Assembly: GCA_029778615.1 (NCBI GenBank)
Contig: JAKOPZ010000245.1
Location: forward strand, 1 to 47,125
Direction: 5' to 3'
DNA length: 47,125 bases
DNA from: Chloroflexota bacterium
Lineage (GTDB): Bacteria; Chloroflexota; Anaerolineae; UBA4142; SHND01
In this document: piece by piece, positions 2,470-29,674 of the stretch
Layout: each line of letters opens with the position of its first letter
How positions within the stretch are numbered: the stretch's first letter is position 1
Made by a program: the position numbers and the translations under genes
Notes under the pieces: model-generated
What the model was told of the DNA's origin: nothing
The model's database searches: none
The model's input: the letters and a program-made list of their open reading frames with translations, nothing else

Positions 2470-3869
2470 CCGTGCGTCGGGGGTTTGGGTCGCGGCAAGC
2501 CCGGTGGTTTGGGGCGCAGCGCGGGCGCGGGCTCCAGTTGCACCGCGTCCAAAAAGAACGGCACAAGAAATTCGTTGATAACAAATGCGGCGAGCACGGC
2601 TGCCGCGCTGGTTGCGGCAATATCAACCAGCGAACCTCCGGGCTGAATCAAACCCAATCCCACCAAAAAAAACAACGTAAAGCGTCGCGAATTTCCTTCC
2701 AACAAATAGCGCGATGCCCAACCGTCCAACAGCGCGAGCGCAATGCCCCACAGGACCGAGCCAAGAATGACGCCCGTCGCGCCAAAGTTGTAATAAAACT
2801 CGAGCACCTGTCCAACGCCCACACTCGTATTTTTTGAAAATGCAACACCTGTTGCATCCGTGACCAAATTGCCACTCCCCGCGCGCACCGGTTTGTCGGG
2901 CCACAAGATGCGCGGAATCGGCGCAATCAACGCGTCAAGCAGCGTCGCGCCGTCTTGATACTCTGCTTTGCCGCGCGCAAGGTTTTCGACAGCCGCGCCC
3001 ACAATCCAATTTTGATTCAGGCGCTGGTCTATGGCATTGAGATGACGCGTATTGTTCAGGTCAAACCATTCAAAATCCGCAAACGTCTGACCGACCCTGA
3101 ACACACGCTCTTCGATGGATTCGCCGCCCCAGACCACCTCACGAATTTGGGTACGGTCGCGAAAATACGTGACGAAGGCGGACGCGCCCAGCAGTACAAA
3201 TGCGGCACCAATGACAATAACCAAAACGCGCGGACGAAAGAAACTTGCAAAGAACGCCAAGCTGGTCAACAACGCCGAAATGCCAAAACCCAAAAATCCC
3301 TGAAACACCAATGTTATCACAGGCAAGAGACCCAACACAACAATCCACCAAAACAGCGTCCACCAATTTCTTGTGGGCCACGCTTGCCAAATGCCCAGAC
3401 AGATACCGAGCAAGAGCAGTTGGTTCATCACGGAGACCACTGCACTCAACGTCGGCACATTGCGCGCAATCGGCGAAAGGACAAAGAAACTAAAGAGCCC
3501 AAAGATAACATACAAGCGATGCACCCAGGGATTGAACAAAACCGCTTGCGGGAAACGCGCCTCCGAGCCCACAGACAGACGACGCGTCAAATGCAAAACC
3601 CACAGCGTAATCACCGCGCCCGCGCCAAAGGCAGCCACTGCCCACGTGCTCTGTTCAAATCCCAATTGAATCCACAACCGCCGATAAAAGGCATAGTCGG
3701 GGTTAAGGTACAAGAATGCGCCGGGCAGGTGAATCATTGCCAAGTTTGCAAGGTACGCCAATACCAATCCAACGCCGAGCGTTGCCTGCGCGCGCTGTGT
3801 GAACACAATCGCCAAAACCACGATGCCCCAAATGAGTATGCCCGTGCCAAAATCAAAATCGGATGTCAT
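2457..3869 (-). CDS. Wzy-like oligosaccharide repeat-unit polymerase, polytopic membrane protein
   Basis: 470 residues, almost wholly hydrophobic, with roughly ten to twelve predicted membrane segments, starting ILIWGIVVLAIVF. A large non-membrane stretch (about residues 225-330) contains a run of charged and aromatic residues and the sequence PRILWPDKPVRAGSGN, as is common in the periplasmic loop of O-antigen or exopolysaccharide polymerases of the oligosaccharide repeat-unit type. The tail is Pro-rich (KPPGLPRPKPP) and cytoplasmic or extracellular. Sequence alone cannot separate a Wzy polymerase from a WaaL-type ligase. Its place among glycosyltransferases supports one of the two. It overlaps the upstream gene by 17 bp. 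Having it beside an ABC exporter is unusual (see findings). Confidence 0.7.
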   Translation of the reverse strand: MTSDFDFGTGILIWGIVVLAIVFTQRAQATLGVGLVLAYLANLAMIHLPGAFLYLNPDYAFYRRLWIQLGFEQSTWAVAAFGAGAVITLWVLHLTRRLSVGSEARFPQAVLFNPWVHRLYVIFGLFSFFVLSPIARNVPTLSAVVSVMNQLLLLGICLGIWQAWPTRNWWTLFWWIVVLGLLPVITLVFQGFLGFGISALLTSLAFFASFFRPRVLVIVIGAAFVLLGASAFVTYFRDRTQIREVVWGGESIEERVFRVGQTFADFEWFDLNNTRHLNAIDQRLNQNWIVGAAVENLARGKAEYQDGATLLDALIAPIPRILWPDKPVRAGSGNLVTDATGVAFSKNTSVGVGQVLEFYYNFGATGVILGSVLWGIALALLDGWASRYLLEGNSRRFTLFFLVGLGLIQPGGSLVDIAATSAAAVLAAFVINEFLVPFFLDAVQLEPAPALRPKPPGLPRPKPPTHGWEP

Positions 3870-22746: not shown

Positions 22747-23316
22747 TCAAGCGATGACGCGCAAATTGATAGAAATAAAAATCAAAAGATACACCAAAAA
22801 GAAAAGGGCATAGAACGCGTGGTATCTTTCATTGCGCGTAAACGCGGCGCCGAGATTCAAAACAAAAAGCAGCGACAACGTGATGGGATAGATTATACCT
22901 TGCGCGACAAAGTGGTCCCAGCCCTTCAAGTACGTATCCAGCGCGTCGAGCGGAAGCAGGAGCGCGCCGAGCGCAAAGAACCAGCGATGATTGGCAAAAT
23001 AGTGCTGCTTGAGGTCTGTCCCATTTTCAATTGTATCGGGAAACAAGAGGACGGCTTCCAAAAACGCGAGCGTCGGACTGAGCAATACAAAAAGAAAAAG
23101 AAAAAAATTCCACTGCGCTTGGGTCTGCCAACGATATTGAATCCACCAAATCAGCACCGCGTACAACAACAGATTCAGCGCCCACACCAAATGTACCCAA
23201 TAGACACGAATGCTGCCGCGCACCTGAAGCAGTCTGCCAATGCCGGTCATTACGCGTGTGATGCTCAACGCGAGCACCACCGAAGTTAAAAACGCGAGAT
23301 ATGAAAAAGGATTCAT
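22747..23316 (-). CDS. Small polytopic membrane protein of unknown function
   Basis: 189 residues with about five or six hydrophobic segments (for example YLAFLTSVVLALSITRVMTGIG, WNFFLFLFVLLSPTLAFLEAV and FYALFFLVYLLIFISINL). No recognisable domain. The start ATG 23316 overlaps the stop of the FAD/GcvT gene as ATGA, so translation is probably coupled. A transport or membrane-anchoring role for the oxidoreductase system is possible but not supported by any motif. Confidence 0.75.
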   Translation of the reverse strand: MNPFSYLAFLTSVVLALSITRVMTGIGRLLQVRGSIRVYWVHLVWALNLLLYAVLIWWIQYRWQTQAQWNFFLFLFVLLSPTLAFLEAVLLFPDTIENGTDLKQHYFANHRWFFALGALLLPLDALDTYLKGWDHFVAQGIIYPITLSLLFVLNLGAAFTRNERYHAFYALFFLVYLLIFISINLRVIA

Positions 23317-25982
23317 GCGCGAATCCTTTCGCCATTGGCATCGTACAATACCTCCGCGTCCACATACGCGGGAAAACGTTCACCAAAAATTTCAATTTCG
23401 AGCGGCGTGCCTATCGCTGCTCGCTCTAGCGGCAAATACACAAAGCCGATGGATTTTTCGACCGTGTAGCCGTACCCGCCACTGCGCAAGCGTCCGAGCA
23501 GCGCGCCGTTGTGATACACTGGTTCGCCGCCATACAATCCCATATTTTTTTCGAGCGTGAGCGTCGCGAGTTTGCGCGTAATGCCGTCCGATTTCACTTT
23601 CGCCAACGCCTCTTTACCCACAAAGTTTGCCTTGTGTAACTTGACACAAAAGCCCAAGCCCGCTTCATACGGATTTTCGTTCGGCGTAATGTCCGTACTC
23701 CAATACCGATACCCTTTTTCCAAACGCAGTGATTCGAGCGCTTTGTATCCCGCCGGACGAATTTCAAACTCGCGCCCCGCGTGGAACAACGCCTCCCACA
23801 CGCGCGCGGCGTCCGCGTTCGCCAAATAGAATTCCCAGCCCAACTCTCCAACATACGTCACGCGCTGTGCCCACACACGCGCATTGTCAATCAAAATAAA
23901 TTTTCCCGTCATGTACGGAAAATTTTCGTTCGATACATTTTCGCGCGTCACTTGTGCCAACACATCACGCGCGTTCGGTCCCCACATGCCAATCGTCGCA
24001 AACTCTTCTGTCACCTCTGCAATCTCCAGTCTCCAGTCCCCGGTCTCTCCTTGCATTCTCATCCACCCCAAATCGCTCGCGACAAAATTACTCCCGCAAA
24101 TCACGCGAAAATGTTCCGCGCCCATTCGCGCAATCGTCACATCGCTTTCGATTCCGCCGCGCGGATTGAGAAATTGCGTGTACGTAATGGTGCCAACCGG
24201 TTTGTTCAAATCATTGTCCGCGAGGTCATTCAAAAAATTCAACGCATCCGCGCCGCGCACATCAATTTTTCCGAACGAGGTCATATCCCAAAGCGCCACG
24301 CGTTCACGCGCCGCGCGATGTTCTTGACCTGCTTGTTCAAAGAACGGCGTGTTGAACCACCCTGTCGCGCGTTGGTCGGCACCTGAACGGCGCGAGAGAT
24401 TAGAGACTGGAGACTGGAGACCAGAGTCCCTAGTCTCCAGTCTCCCATCTCTCTCAAAGTAGTTGACCCGCTCCCACCCATTCTTTTCTCCAAACACCGC
24501 GCCGAGTTCGAGCAATTTCGCGTCGAGCGGCGATTTGCGTTTTTCACGCGCGCGTTCGTTTTCATCATGCGGAAAACGAAGCCAGTAATAATATTTGTAC
24601 GCTTCTTTGGCGCGTTCGCTCGCGTAATTTTTATCGCGATAGATTTCGCCGAATCGTCGCACATTCAATTCCGTCACATCATACGGTGGCTCACCATTCA
24701 CAATCCACTCGGAGATAATTTCACCAATCGCCGCGCCCGCGCCGAAACCTGTGTGCGAAAGTCCGCACGCCGCCCAAAAACCGGGGACGCCGGGAACGGG
24801 ACCGAGCAGCGGTTTGCTGTCGGGCGTAATCGCTTCGGGTCCGTGAACCAAATTCACCGCGTCCGCTTTTTCCAACATTGGCACGCGGCGAATCGCGCCC
24901 TCCAGAATCGGCGCAAACAATTCCCAATCGGGCGGCAAAAGTTTTTGGGTGAAATCCCACGGCACGCCGTCCATTGCCCATTCGCGGGGTTCCAGTTCAA
25001 AACCGCCAATCAACATGCCGCCCACTTCTTCGCGCATGTACACTAAATTTTCCGGGTCACGCAAGCAGGGTGTATTTTTCGGAAATGAATAATCGGGCAT
25101 ACGCGCGAGCAAGTGTTGATGTCCGAGGGGTGTCATGGGCAGATTTGCGCCGACCATTTCGCCAATCTGTCGTCCCCACATCCCGCCGGCGTTCACAACA
25201 CATTCGGTTTGAATCGAACCCGCGTCGGTCGTGACGCTACAAATTTTTCCATTCGCGTCGCGCAAAATTTCTATCACGCGCGTTTGGGTAAAAATTTGCG
25301 CGCCGTTTTGTTTGGCGCGCCGCGCAATTTCCATTGTCGCGCCGCTCGGGTCAATCCAGCCGTCCGTCGGCAAATACAATCCACCGTGTAGGGACGAAGC
25401 ATTTTGCGACATAGAGCGCCGCATTGAAAATGCTTCGCCCTTACCTATCCACGGATAAATTTCTAAACATTCGCGCGGTGAAATGATTTCGACATTCAAA
25501 CCAATCGCCTTTGCCAAACCGACTTGGCGTTTCAAAAATAAAAATTGGTCAGCACTCGACGCGACGCGCAGACTGCCAACCGCGTGCCAATGCTGCGCGG
25601 AATTCGAACGCTGCGGTGAGCGTTCGCTACCATCGTACGGAACGAACGCCGTTTCGTTCCCCGCCGTTTCGTTCCCCGCCGTTTCGTTCCCCGCCGTTTC
25701 GTTCCCCGCCGTTTCGTTCCCGTTCCCCAACGCCCGATACAAATCAATCGAATATTTTCGCATCCGCATCAACGTCGGCGACGTATGAAAATGCGTGACC
25801 ATGCCAGCGGCGTGCCACGTCGAGCCGCTGGTGAGTTCGCCCTTGTCCAACAAAACAACATCGCGCACACCCATTTTCGTCAGATGATATGCGATGCTCG
25901 TGCCGGCAATCCCGCCGCCGATAATGACGACGCGCACGTGCTGCGGAAATTGGCTGTGTGGGCGCTTGGGTGATTCGGGCAT
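23313..25982 (-). CDS. FAD-dependent oxidoreductase-GcvT fusion (dimethylglycine/sarcosine dehydrogenase-like) carrying several repeat insertions
   Basis: 889 residues. Residues 18-30 hold the FAD dinucleotide fold (VVIIGGGIAGTSIAYHL). The STWHAAG motif (H57) corresponds to the region of covalent FAD attachment in dimethylglycine and sarcosine dehydrogenases. The GcvT-like folate domain occupies about 550-889 (YMTGKF, VTYVGELGWEFY, YKALESLRLEKGYRYW). The predicted reaction is oxidative demethylation of an N-methyl amine with tetrahydrofolate accepting the one-carbon unit; the substrate is not fixed. Compared with the paralogue at 27077 it has extra segments: a NETAG tract and palindrome near 88-130, a 19-residue palindromic insertion at 181-199, and a heptamer repeat at 512-532. 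The start is ATG 25982; TTG 26000 is possible. Confidence 0.9.
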   Translation of the reverse strand: MPESPKRPHSQFPQHVRVVIIGGGIAGTSIAYHLTKMGVRDVVLLDKGELTSGSTWHAAGMVTHFHTSPTLMRMRKYSIDLYRALGNGNETAGNETAGNETAGNETAGNETAFVPYDGSERSPQRSNSAQHWHAVGSLRVASSADQFLFLKRQVGLAKAIGLNVEIISPRECLEIYPWIGKGEAFSMRRSMSQNASSLHGGLYLPTDGWIDPSGATMEIARRAKQNGAQIFTQTRVIEILRDANGKICSVTTDAGSIQTECVVNAGGMWGRQIGEMVGANLPMTPLGHQHLLARMPDYSFPKNTPCLRDPENLVYMREEVGGMLIGGFELEPREWAMDGVPWDFTQKLLPPDWELFAPILEGAIRRVPMLEKADAVNLVHGPEAITPDSKPLLGPVPGVPGFWAACGLSHTGFGAGAAIGEIISEWIVNGEPPYDVTELNVRRFGEIYRDKNYASERAKEAYKYYYWLRFPHDENERAREKRKSPLDAKLLELGAVFGEKNGWERVNYFERDGRLETRDSGLQSPVSNLSRRSGADQRATGWFNTPFFEQAGQEHRAARERVALWDMTSFGKIDVRGADALNFLNDLADNDLNKPVGTITYTQFLNPRGGIESDVTIARMGAEHFRVICGSNFVASDLGWMRMQGETGDWRLEIAEVTEEFATIGMWGPNARDVLAQVTRENVSNENFPYMTGKFILIDNARVWAQRVTYVGELGWEFYLANADAARVWEALFHAGREFEIRPAGYKALESLRLEKGYRYWSTDITPNENPYEAGLGFCVKLHKANFVGKEALAKVKSDGITRKLATLTLEKNMGLYGGEPVYHNGALLGRLRSGGYGYTVEKSIGFVYLPLERAAIGTPLEIEIFGERFPAYVDAEVLYDANGERIRA
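24020..24050. repeat. Heptamer repeat tract in the GcvT domain
   Basis: AATCTCCAGTCTCCAGTC-like units (7 bp). In the gene it encodes GETGDWRLEIAE. The paralogue has nearly the same length here, so the sequence was replaced rather than simply inserted. Confidence 0.7.
24394..24456. repeat. Inverted heptamer repeat in the FAD-GcvT interdomain linker
   Basis: GGAGACT units run in one orientation and then in the opposite one, so the tract can fold back on itself. It encodes RLETRDSGLQSPVSNL. A similar inverted tract occupies the same linker in the paralogue (28469-28523). Confidence 0.85.
25388..25444. repeat. 57-bp palindromic element inserted in frame
   Basis: Arms GTAGGGACGAAGCATTTT (25388-25405) and the complementary 18 bp at 25427-25444 match at 16 of 18 positions around a 21-bp centre. 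The element is exactly 57 bp, so it adds 19 codons (GKGEAFSMRR, SMSQNASSL) without a stop. The paralogous protein lacks them. Confidence 0.85.
25609..25725. repeat. GAACGCT palindrome plus five-fold 15-bp tandem repeat in frame
   Basis: GAACGCTGCGGTGAGCGTTC forms a short palindrome. It is followed by a spacer and then five copies of a 15-bp unit (GTTTCGTTCCCCGCC, the last one incomplete) at 25651-25725. On the coding strand this is NETAG repeated five times and then VPYDGSERSPQRS. Confidence 0.85.
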
Positions 25983-26023
25983 TGGCTTTTGGTTTTGCAA
26001 AATATTTGCCCTGCAACGCGCGA

Positions 26024-26996: not shown

Positions 26997-27105
26997 CAGG
27001 TCGTAGGTAGTAGGTAGCAGGTAGCAGGTAGCACGTTTCAATCTCCAGTCTCCAATCTCCAGTCTCTAATCATCCAATGACCCAATCCCCCAATTCCCCA
27101 ATCCC
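26993..27105. repeat. Repeat bridge between kinase and oxidoreductase
   Basis: Three successive tandem families: six GTAGCAG-type 7-mers (26993-27034), AATCTCC/AGTCTCC 7-mers (27040-27071), and four CCAATnCC-type 8-mers (27074-27105). The kinase stop codon (26994-26996) lies in the first and the next start codon (27077) in the last. Confidence 0.9.
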
Positions 27106-29674
27106 TGTCCCGAGCGCAGTCGAGGGAACCCAATTTCCCCTCCACGCGCGCGTCGTCATTATCGGCGGCGGTGTCGGCGGCGCAAGCATCGCGTATCATC
27201 TCACGTTATTCGGATGGCACGATGTCGTTGTGTTGGAGCGCAGCGAACTCACAAGCGGCTCGACCTTTCATTCGGCGGGACTCGTCGGACAATTGCGAAC
27301 GTCAAGCAATTTGACCAAGCTGATTCGCTACAGCACCGATTTGTATCGCAAGTTAAAAGACGAAACGGAAGTTGACCCCGGTTGGCGCGAGGTGGGAAGT
27401 TTGCGGCTCGCGTCCTCCAAAGCGCGTTTGGAAGAATTGAAACATCTCGTCGCCGTGTCGCGTTCATTCGGTTTGCCGCTCGAACTCATCAGCGCAAACG
27501 ACGCGCAAAAATTATTTCCATTGATGACGGCGGATGGCGTGGAAGGCGCGGTGTATTTGCCGACCGACGGTTACATTGACCCGACCGGTTTGACGATGGC
27601 GCTGGTTGCCGGCGCCAAAGCGCGCGGCGCGAAATTTTTCACACACACGCGCGTTCAGAGCATCACCTTAAGAAATTCGCGCGTTCATTCCGTCGTCACC
27701 GACCAAGGCGTTATCGAAACCGAAATCGTGGTGAACGCGGCGGGACAATGGGCGGGTGAAATCGGCGCGATGGTTGGCTTGAATTTTCCAATCATTTCGA
27801 TGGCGCATCTCTATCTCATCACCAAGCCAATGGGCATTACGCAAACGCTGCCCACAATGCGCGACCCCGATTTGCTCGTGTATTTCCGCGAAGAAGTGGG
27901 CGGACTCATTATGGGCGGTTACGAACGCGAACCGGCGGCATGGGCGCTCGACGGCATTCCGCAAGATTTCAATGGAAAACTTTTGCCGCCGGATTGGGAA
28001 CGTTTCGCGCCGTTGATGGAAAATGCAATTCGCCGCGTGCCCGCCATCGAAAACGCCCAAGTGAATTTGTTGTTGAACGGTCCCGAAGGATTCACCCCCG
28101 ACGCGGAATATCTCATGGGTCCGACGACGGTGAAAGGTTTTTGGATTGCGGCGGCGTTTTGCGCGCACGGACTCGCGGGCGCGGGCGGCATCGGCAAAGC
28201 AATGGCGGAATGGCTCATCGAAGGACATCCCGAATGGGATTTATGGCGGCTCGACCATCGGCGTTTCGGCGCGAATTACGCGAGTCAAAAATACATTCTC
28301 GCGCGAACGATTGAAACGTACAGCAAGTACTATGACATTCATTATCCGAACGAAGAACGCGAGTCCGCGCGTCCCTTGCGCATTTCTCCCGCGTACGCGC
28401 GTTTGCAAGAGTTGGGCGCGGTGTTTGGTGAAAAGGCGGGGTGGGAGAGACCGAATTGGTTTGAAAAAGATTGGAGACTGGAGACTAGAGACTCGTCCAG
28501 TCTCCAGTCTCCAGTCTCCAGTTATTCCCCCCGTGGTTGGGCAAAACATCATTGGTCACCCGCCATCGGCGTCGAACATATTGGCACGCGGGAACGCGCG
28601 GGTTTGTTTGACGAAACATCGTTCAGCAAAATTTTTGTGCGCGGTCCGCGCGCGCTCGAAACCTTGCAGTCTCTTTGCGACAACGATATAGATAAACCGG
28701 TCGGCAGTGTGATGTATACACAGATGTTGAATCCGCGCGGCGGCATCGAATGTGATTTCACCGTCACGCGTCTTGCACTCGACCATTTTCAAATCATCAC
28801 CGGCACCGCGTTCGGCGCGCATGATTTACAACACATTCAGACGCACGCGCCCGACGATGGTTCGGTTTTGATTGACGACGTGACATCCCAATTCGCGTGT
28901 TTTGGTTTGTGGGGACCGCGCGCGCGGGATATTTTGGCGCGCGCGATGGGCGAACACAGCGAACACAGCGAACACAGCGAACACAGCGAACACAGCGAAC
29001 GCTACGGCGAGCGTTCGGTACGGAACGCTCGCGGCAGCGTTCCGAGCATTTCGAATGACGCGTTTCCGTACATGACAAGCAAGAGACTGGAGATTGGAGA
29101 CTGCCCGGTGTTGGCTTTGCGCGTAACGTATGTTGGCGAACTCGGTTGGGAATTTTATACGCCGATGGAATATGGGCGCGCGTTGTGGGACACATTATGG
29201 GACGCGGGACAGGAATTTGGAATCGTCGCGGGCGGCTATCGCGCGATTGATTCTTTGCGCGTGGAAAAGGGATATCGCTATTGGAGTGGCGACATTGGTC
29301 CCGATTACACGCCGTACGAAGCGGGATTGGGCTTTTGCGTCAAGTTGAACAAGGGCGACTTTATCGGGCGCGCCGCGTTGATGAAACAAAAAGAAAACGG
29401 CATCACGAAAAAATTGTGCTGCCTCACGCTCGACGATTCCTCCGCGATTGCGATTGGTAACGAACCTGTGCGTTACAATGACCGCGTGGTGAGTTGGATT
29501 ACGTCGGCGAGTTACGGTTATTCCGTACAAAAGAGCATCGCGTATGCGTACTTGCCGATTGAACTCGCAAAGATTGGGACACGGCTCGATGTGGAATTGC
29601 TTGGCGAACGCATCGGCGCGGTGGTCGCCCAAGACCCGCAGTGGGACCCGCGAGGGGAACGCATCAAAGCGTAA
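27077..29674 (+). CDS. FAD-dependent oxidoreductase-GcvT fusion, second copy
   Basis: 865 residues, paralogous to the minus-strand gene at 23313. FAD motif VVIIGGGVGGASIAYHL (27-43). STFHSAG with H65 at the equivalent of the covalent FAD site. The GcvT domain begins near 495. The N terminus, MTQSPNSPIPVPSAVEGTQF, is written in 8-mer repeats and a GAGCGCAGTCGAGGG repeat element, so the true start could be internal, but ATG 27077 is the first. Extra segments relative to the paralogue are an inverted heptamer tract in the interdomain linker (about 466-483) and a five-fold EHS tract plus palindrome (626-658). A heptamer-like stretch also encodes RLEIGD near 670. Probably an N-methyl-amine dehydrogenase. 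It starts 80 bp after the kinase, with no terminator between. Confidence 0.88.
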   Translation: MTQSPNSPIPVPSAVEGTQFPLHARVVIIGGGVGGASIAYHLTLFGWHDVVVLERSELTSGSTFHSAGLVGQLRTSSNLTKLIRYSTDLYRKLKDETEVDPGWREVGSLRLASSKARLEELKHLVAVSRSFGLPLELISANDAQKLFPLMTADGVEGAVYLPTDGYIDPTGLTMALVAGAKARGAKFFTHTRVQSITLRNSRVHSVVTDQGVIETEIVVNAAGQWAGEIGAMVGLNFPIISMAHLYLITKPMGITQTLPTMRDPDLLVYFREEVGGLIMGGYEREPAAWALDGIPQDFNGKLLPPDWERFAPLMENAIRRVPAIENAQVNLLLNGPEGFTPDAEYLMGPTTVKGFWIAAAFCAHGLAGAGGIGKAMAEWLIEGHPEWDLWRLDHRRFGANYASQKYILARTIETYSKYYDIHYPNEERESARPLRISPAYARLQELGAVFGEKAGWERPNWFEKDWRLETRDSSSLQSPVSSYSPRGWAKHHWSPAIGVEHIGTRERAGLFDETSFSKIFVRGPRALETLQSLCDNDIDKPVGSVMYTQMLNPRGGIECDFTVTRLALDHFQIITGTAFGAHDLQHIQTHAPDDGSVLIDDVTSQFACFGLWGPRARDILARAMGEHSEHSEHSEHSEHSERYGERSVRNARGSVPSISNDAFPYMTSKRLEIGDCPVLALRVTYVGELGWEFYTPMEYGRALWDTLWDAGQEFGIVAGGYRAIDSLRVEKGYRYWSGDIGPDYTPYEAGLGFCVKLNKGDFIGRAALMKQKENGITKKLCCLTLDDSSAIAIGNEPVRYNDRVVSWITSASYGYSVQKSIAYAYLPIELAKIGTRLDVELLGERIGAVVAQDPQWDPRGERIKA
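28469..28523. repeat. Inverted heptamer repeat in the interdomain linker, second copy
   Basis: Three GGAGACT-type units, a 5-bp centre, then three AGTCTCC units. It encodes RLETRDSSSLQSPVSS and remains in frame. Location matches 24394-24456 in the paralogue. Confidence 0.85.
28952..29050. repeat. Five-fold 9-bp tandem repeat plus GAACGCT palindrome in frame
   Basis: Five copies of GAACACAGC (28952-28996) encode EHS repeats. They run into GAACGCTACGGCGAGCGTTC (28997-29016) and a further palindromic stretch to about 29050. The paralogue lacks these roughly 30 residues. Confidence 0.85.
29084..29103. repeat. Heptamer-like tract in the GcvT domain of the second copy
   Basis: GAGACTGGAGATTGGAGACT encodes RLEIGD. 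The corresponding segment of the paralogue is the same length, pointing to sequence replacement. Confidence 0.6.

Follow-up and report, generated by a model that had tools for sequence, protein, structure and literature searches.

The window analysed here, a stretch of 47,125 nucleotides from an uncultured member of the Chloroflexota (class Anaerolineae; contig JAKOPZ010000245.1 of assembly GCA_029778615.1), carries a minus-strand gene for a multidomain FAD-GcvT protein related to dimethylglycine dehydrogenase/oxidase structures, and a plus-strand paralogue of it (Table 1). Within the gene lies a short palindrome that reads in frame through its whole length; it was originally predicted to be an inverted repeat with 18-nt arms, 16 of 18 positions complementary, around a 21-nt centre (57 bp in total), and both the structure and the in-frame reading within the minus-strand ORF were borne out. 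Copies of the same kind of palindrome recur elsewhere in the host genome (G000) and in other genomes of the class, and those within coding sequence are included in Table 1.

Table 1. Genes, element components and coding copies of the repeat family, with locations in the window or by genome and locus
Feature	Location	Strand	Length	Remarks
Host gene, dimethylglycine dehydrogenase/oxidase-like; DAO, FAO_M, GCV_T and GCV_T_C	23313..26000	-	895 aa	domain and structure matches
Paralogue without element	27077..29674	+
Loop region replacing the 7-codon loop of orthologues (insert plus flanks)	25384..25449	-		approximate bounds; low-confidence predicted coil
Palindromic repeat, GTAG...CTAC family, short size class	25388..25444	.	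57 bp	minus-strand reading lies mid-ORF
Left arm, GTAGGGACGAAGCATTTT	25388..25405	+		inverted-repeat analysis
Right arm, AAAATGCTTCGCCCTTAC	25427..25444	+		16/18 complementary to left arm
Centre	25406..25426	.	21 nt	homologous to centres at G000:C184:60722 and G003:C31:1974
Copy in BTAD/NB-ARC protein	C39:20602		60 bp	in frame, directly before Walker A strand
Copy in BTAD/AAA/TPR protein	C42:6474		71 bp	in frame
Copy in PMT-like protein	C5:6062		69 bp	in frame, between membrane segments
Copy in other genus	G009 L319			in frame
Copy in other genus	G009 L303			in frame
Copy in other genus	G012 L300, at 501			in frame; one nSTAND1 match (326-649) spans the insert

The insertion in the FAD-GcvT gene

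On the coding strand the element has a predicted folding energy of -28.9 kcal/mol against a mean of -11.8 for shuffled sequences (z -7.65). It encodes the peptide G-KGEAFSMRRSMSQNASSL-H (residues 186-205), flanked by the conserved residues P183 and G206. In the AlphaFold2 model these residues form a coil between a helix (175-181) and a strand (206-210), with pLDDT below 50 over residues 188-200, which is consistent with their occupying a flexible loop of the predicted fold.

Comparison with relatives allows the coding change to be counted. The G003 orthologue, 86% identical, reads YPW-LTDKDLY-GGLYLP at the site and that of G001 reads FPW-MTDENLY-GGMYLP, whereas the window protein has YPW-IGKGEAFSMRRSMSQNASSLH-GGLYLP; the tryptophan and the glycine pair are thus separated by 7 codons in both orthologues and by 21 in the window gene. 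The 57-bp element together with 6 bp has therefore replaced 21 bp, a net gain of 14 codons (42 bp), with about 15 bp of host DNA missing. The original count of 19 added codons needs correction accordingly: 19 are occupied by the element and 14 are gained, because about 15 bp of the host loop have gone. The extra 14 residues lie between conserved blocks, as had been proposed, and are missing from all 13 aligned homologues, comprising the paralogue and 12 proteins from other genomes; the condition originally set against the idea, orthologues that also carry the residues, did not arise.

The two genes contain other repeats as well. The host gene holds a further in-frame palindromic repeat of an unrelated kind (window 24394-24453), with 28-bp arms and a 7-nt period (GAGACTG), which encodes RLETRDSGLQSPVSNL; 139 occurrences of its core 14-mer were counted in the genome. 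Another in-frame copy of this second family occupies the matching place in the paralogue (28468-28520, encoding WRLETRDSSSLQSPVSSYS), where G003, G001 and G004 have other inserts or none. Perfect in-frame tandem repeats are also present in the host gene (25647-25721, 15 bp x 5, encoding GNETA) and in the paralogue (28950-29000, 9 bp x 5.7, encoding EHS), and are missing from the orthologues.

A dispersed family of palindromes with a maintained stem

Searching the host genome, a draft of 372 contigs, with the exact 57-mer returned no second copy at up to three mismatches, but a dispersed family defined by its arms was found. The arm consensus GTAGGGGCGAAGCATT, at no more than two mismatches, occurs 51 times in forward and 60 times in reverse orientation (111 in all), against 3 and 4 occurrences (7) of the reversed pattern used as control. 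When arms were paired within the fetched loci, 60 palindromes of the layout GTAGGGGCGAAGCATT...AATGCTTCGCCCCTAC were counted. They fall into two size classes, a shorter one of 54-60 bp (13 copies) and a longer one of 68-73 bp (47 copies), for an overall range of 54-73 bp. The consensus has GTAG at both ends, with variants such as ATAG, GTAA and GTTG, and a centre that is hypervariable across the family. The window element nevertheless belongs to a sub-family with a homologous centre: a BLAST search aligned the copy at C184:60722 through the centre also (E 3e-7), and a 57-bp copy in the same-genus genome G003 (C31:1974-2030) is homologous over its whole length. The sub-family thus has three loci in two species (copies of 57-58 bp), and further relatives occur in other genera. 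Uniqueness of the exact 57-mer would, taken alone, have counted against its being a repeat; it was the search relaxed to the arms that brought out the family.

Of the 149 genomes examined, 54 contain the arm sequence, all of them members of the same class, and it is most common in the same order; one genome of the same genus, G005, had no arm sequence within one mismatch. Relatives of the host that have names are MAGs of uncultured Anaerolineae/Chloroflexi. A search of Rfam gave only chance-level matches far under the gathering scores, and a literature search for the exact sequence GGGGCGAAGCATT gave no result.

The stem spans about 17-20 bp, with GTAG itself paired to CTAC. Stem positions 17, 18 and 19, which took no part in finding the copies, are paired in 42, 44 and 45 of the 47 long copies, compared with shuffled means of 17, 18 and 36, and the bases that form these pairs vary between copies. 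At the C250 site, where all three genomes have a copy, the host has TTGCA/TGCAA as its inner stem, and G003 and G004 have TGACA/TGTCA. Such covariation indicates that pairing has been preserved, whether through selection on the hairpin or through the way in which the element is copied.

Copies at gene 3' ends

Coding insertion, the setting in which the element was first noticed, proved to be that of a minority; for the most part the copies are not in coding sequence but at the 3' ends of genes. ORFs of 180 codons or more ended between -90 and +80 of the element at 50 of 120 flanks. The end fell exactly on +1, where the GTAG end provides TAG or TAA, at 24 of 120 flanks compared with 1 of 2172 random points drawn from the same loci, and within -20 to +1 at 37 of 120 compared with 22 of 2172. 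Orthologues that lack the element mostly terminate no more than a few codons away from this point, with a TAA, TGA or TAG of their own, indicating that the genes flanking the element have not been truncated by it; in several of these orthologues the stop is immediately followed by a hairpin-like sequence. Where a copy is shared between genomes, the gene likewise stops at its TAG (G003 and G004 at the C250 site, G001 at the C184:74943 site). At gene 3' ends a GTAG end supplies the stop codon of the neighbour, TAG or TAA, and the hairpin could act in the RNA as a 3'-end structure or as one resembling a terminator.

In one G003 locus (L170, approximately 3312-3489), a longer and different repeat of the type CATTGCGAG...CAATGACA lies at the gene-end position where the host has a copy of the present family (G000:C114:3777), as if gene ends were common landing sites.

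Copies within coding sequence

Intragenic copies are few in number, but they occur in unrelated genes, the pattern originally named as one that would support a mobile in-frame element: two BTAD/NTPase regulators and a PMT-like transferase of the host genome, and STAND-type and TPR-like genes of two further genera. In orthologues of the three host-genome genes the linkers are shorter at the element site, and the PMT-like orthologue of G001 seems to have a decayed copy in the same linker. The lengths of the intragenic copies (55, 57, 60, 69 and 71 bp) indicate that the frame has been kept by adjustment at the junctions and not by element length alone; the expectation that coding copies would be multiples of three fails for convincing copies of 71 and 55 bp.

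A single reading phase ([G/S][R/K]GEA...), which gives a peptide of the form [x]RGEA...NASPL, is shared by L319 and by four of the five in-frame copies assessed in the host genome. L300 and L303 read VGAKH instead, and in the remaining phase TAG would be a stop codon. Survival of coding copies would depend on junctions that kept the frame, on a phase in which GTAG is not read as a stop and on a surface loop that tolerates changes in length. The event in the FAD-GcvT gene would be a net 14-codon insertion into a loop of the FAD domain with the loss of about five host codons, which the enzyme presumably tolerates.

A 73-bp sequence in a PMT-like gene (C37:33951) was weighed as a fifth copy within coding sequence. 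It is degenerate, however, and the corresponding linker of the G003 orthologue, though unrelated, is about as long, so that the case is regarded as possible. Many ORFs running through copies near the N-terminus or in antisense were set aside as spurious. Proteins of the relatives contain peptides of other repeats in frame, LTPGPSPNRRGE (L106), SPSPHRRGVGGEV (L161), TPLRSAQDVAVGG (L303) and RLQSPVSNLQSPISNL (L085), suggesting that several repeat families enter coding sequence in this group.

Origin of the element and alternative explanations

It is very probable that the window element is a copy of a non-autonomous, dispersed, GTAG-tagged REP-like palindrome that resides mostly at gene 3' ends, with a minority of copies tolerated in coding loops. 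A transposase may copy the element to new sites, leaving no target-site duplication. The dispersed family, the in-frame copies and the orthologues that do not have them agree with the mobility originally proposed, but the flanking short duplications expected of a mobile element did not emerge: exact duplications of 2-9 bp were not in excess of shuffled pairing at 59 copies, and the flanks showed weak biases but no consensus. The four Y1_Tnp loci of the genome, a draft in which a gene could be missed, had no convincing arms in flanks of about 1.5 kb. Among the fetched loci there was no long arm-flanked insertion sequence, and the only unpaired arms, seven in number, flanked no recognised transposase. 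With neither duplications nor a linked transposase or insertion sequence, movement is inferred from dispersal, and the arms may owe their conservation to gene conversion and not to recent transposition.

These same results bear on whether the family could consist of MITEs that descend from a DDE insertion sequence and have both terminal inverted repeats and a target-site duplication such as TA. The long inverted termini would suit such an origin, and GTAG/CTAC can be read as TA duplications within G...C; however, the G and C outside the TA are as conserved as the remaining bases, no parent insertion sequence with the same ends appeared among the fetched loci and duplications outside the element did not exceed shuffled pairing, making a MITE origin unlikely. 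It is more doubtful still that the element is a Rickettsia palindromic element or a direct equivalent, with a peptide adapted to carriage inside proteins. In-frame copies at loop or linker positions of unrelated genes, and the phase shared by most host-genome copies and by L319 of another genus, are what such an element would produce, but most copies lie at gene 3' ends outside coding sequence, two copies in other genera are in a different phase and the hypervariable centre means that no peptide is conserved beyond the arms. Moreover, the Rickettsia elements are reported to be about 150 bp long (PMC10969869) and several end in CGTC, not GTAG (PMC3733652). Local expansion of the loop, palindromic by chance or through local duplication, might be entertained given the loss of host bases at this position and the 15-bp tandem expansion elsewhere in the gene, but is scarcely credible when unrelated loci have the 57-bp sequence, with its centre, at about 88% identity.

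Relation to known repeats

The closest described kind to the REP-like palindrome favoured here is the GTAG-tagged palindromes, which occur in several phyla including Chloroflexi, often give a TAG stop to flanking ORFs through their termini and are sometimes located inside ORFs (Di Nocera et al., 2013; PMC3733652). The present family resembles them in being palindromic and dispersed, in the terminal GTAG of most copies, in its location at gene 3' ends, in supplying TAG and in its in-frame ORF copies; its behaviour is thus already known in kind, but its architecture differs. GTAG-tagged REPs measure 20-40 bp, have the tag on one end and form stems that are mostly 6-9 bp long and reach 13 bp at most (PMC3733652), whereas here a single palindrome of 54-73 bp has a stem of about 19 bp and GTAG paired to CTAC at both ends, a layout nearer to a head-head dimer, but without a separate hairpin for each arm. 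Association with RAYT genes (REPtrons) is frequent but not universal in GTAG-tagged REPs, and none was found linked here. The GTAG end signature and absence of a typical target duplication are likewise shared with RAYT-associated REPs/BIMEs (Nunvar et al., 2010; PMC2817692), from which the family differs in that convincing arms were not found next to the genome's four Y1_Tnp loci.

For in-frame coding insertion the closest analogue is the Rickettsia palindromic elements, several families of which are mostly intragenic (Ogata et al., 2000, 2002, summarised in PMC10969869). The likeness originally drawn to them stands for behaviour, namely palindromic DNA that is in frame in unrelated genes and retained, but not for length and ends: by published descriptions, including the CGTC termini of the R. 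conorii elements (PMC3733652), they differ from a family of 54-73 bp with GTAG ends, a hypervariable centre and a minority of coding copies.

Tentatively, the double-ended GTAG palindromes could be a lineage-specific class within the Anaerolineae, serving as a portable gene-end cassette that supplies a stop and a bidirectional terminator hairpin in either orientation; their occasional coding insertions would then repeatedly give rise to new protein loops. Insertions of palindromes into coding sequence are best known from Rickettsia and some Proteobacteria, and several orthologue-controlled cases can now be added from an uncultured, free-living lineage of Chloroflexota, among which the FAD-GcvT gene allows even the host bases lost at the site to be counted. 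A single repeat would appear to have two routes to retention, as a stop and hairpin at the end of a gene and as a tolerated loop within one.
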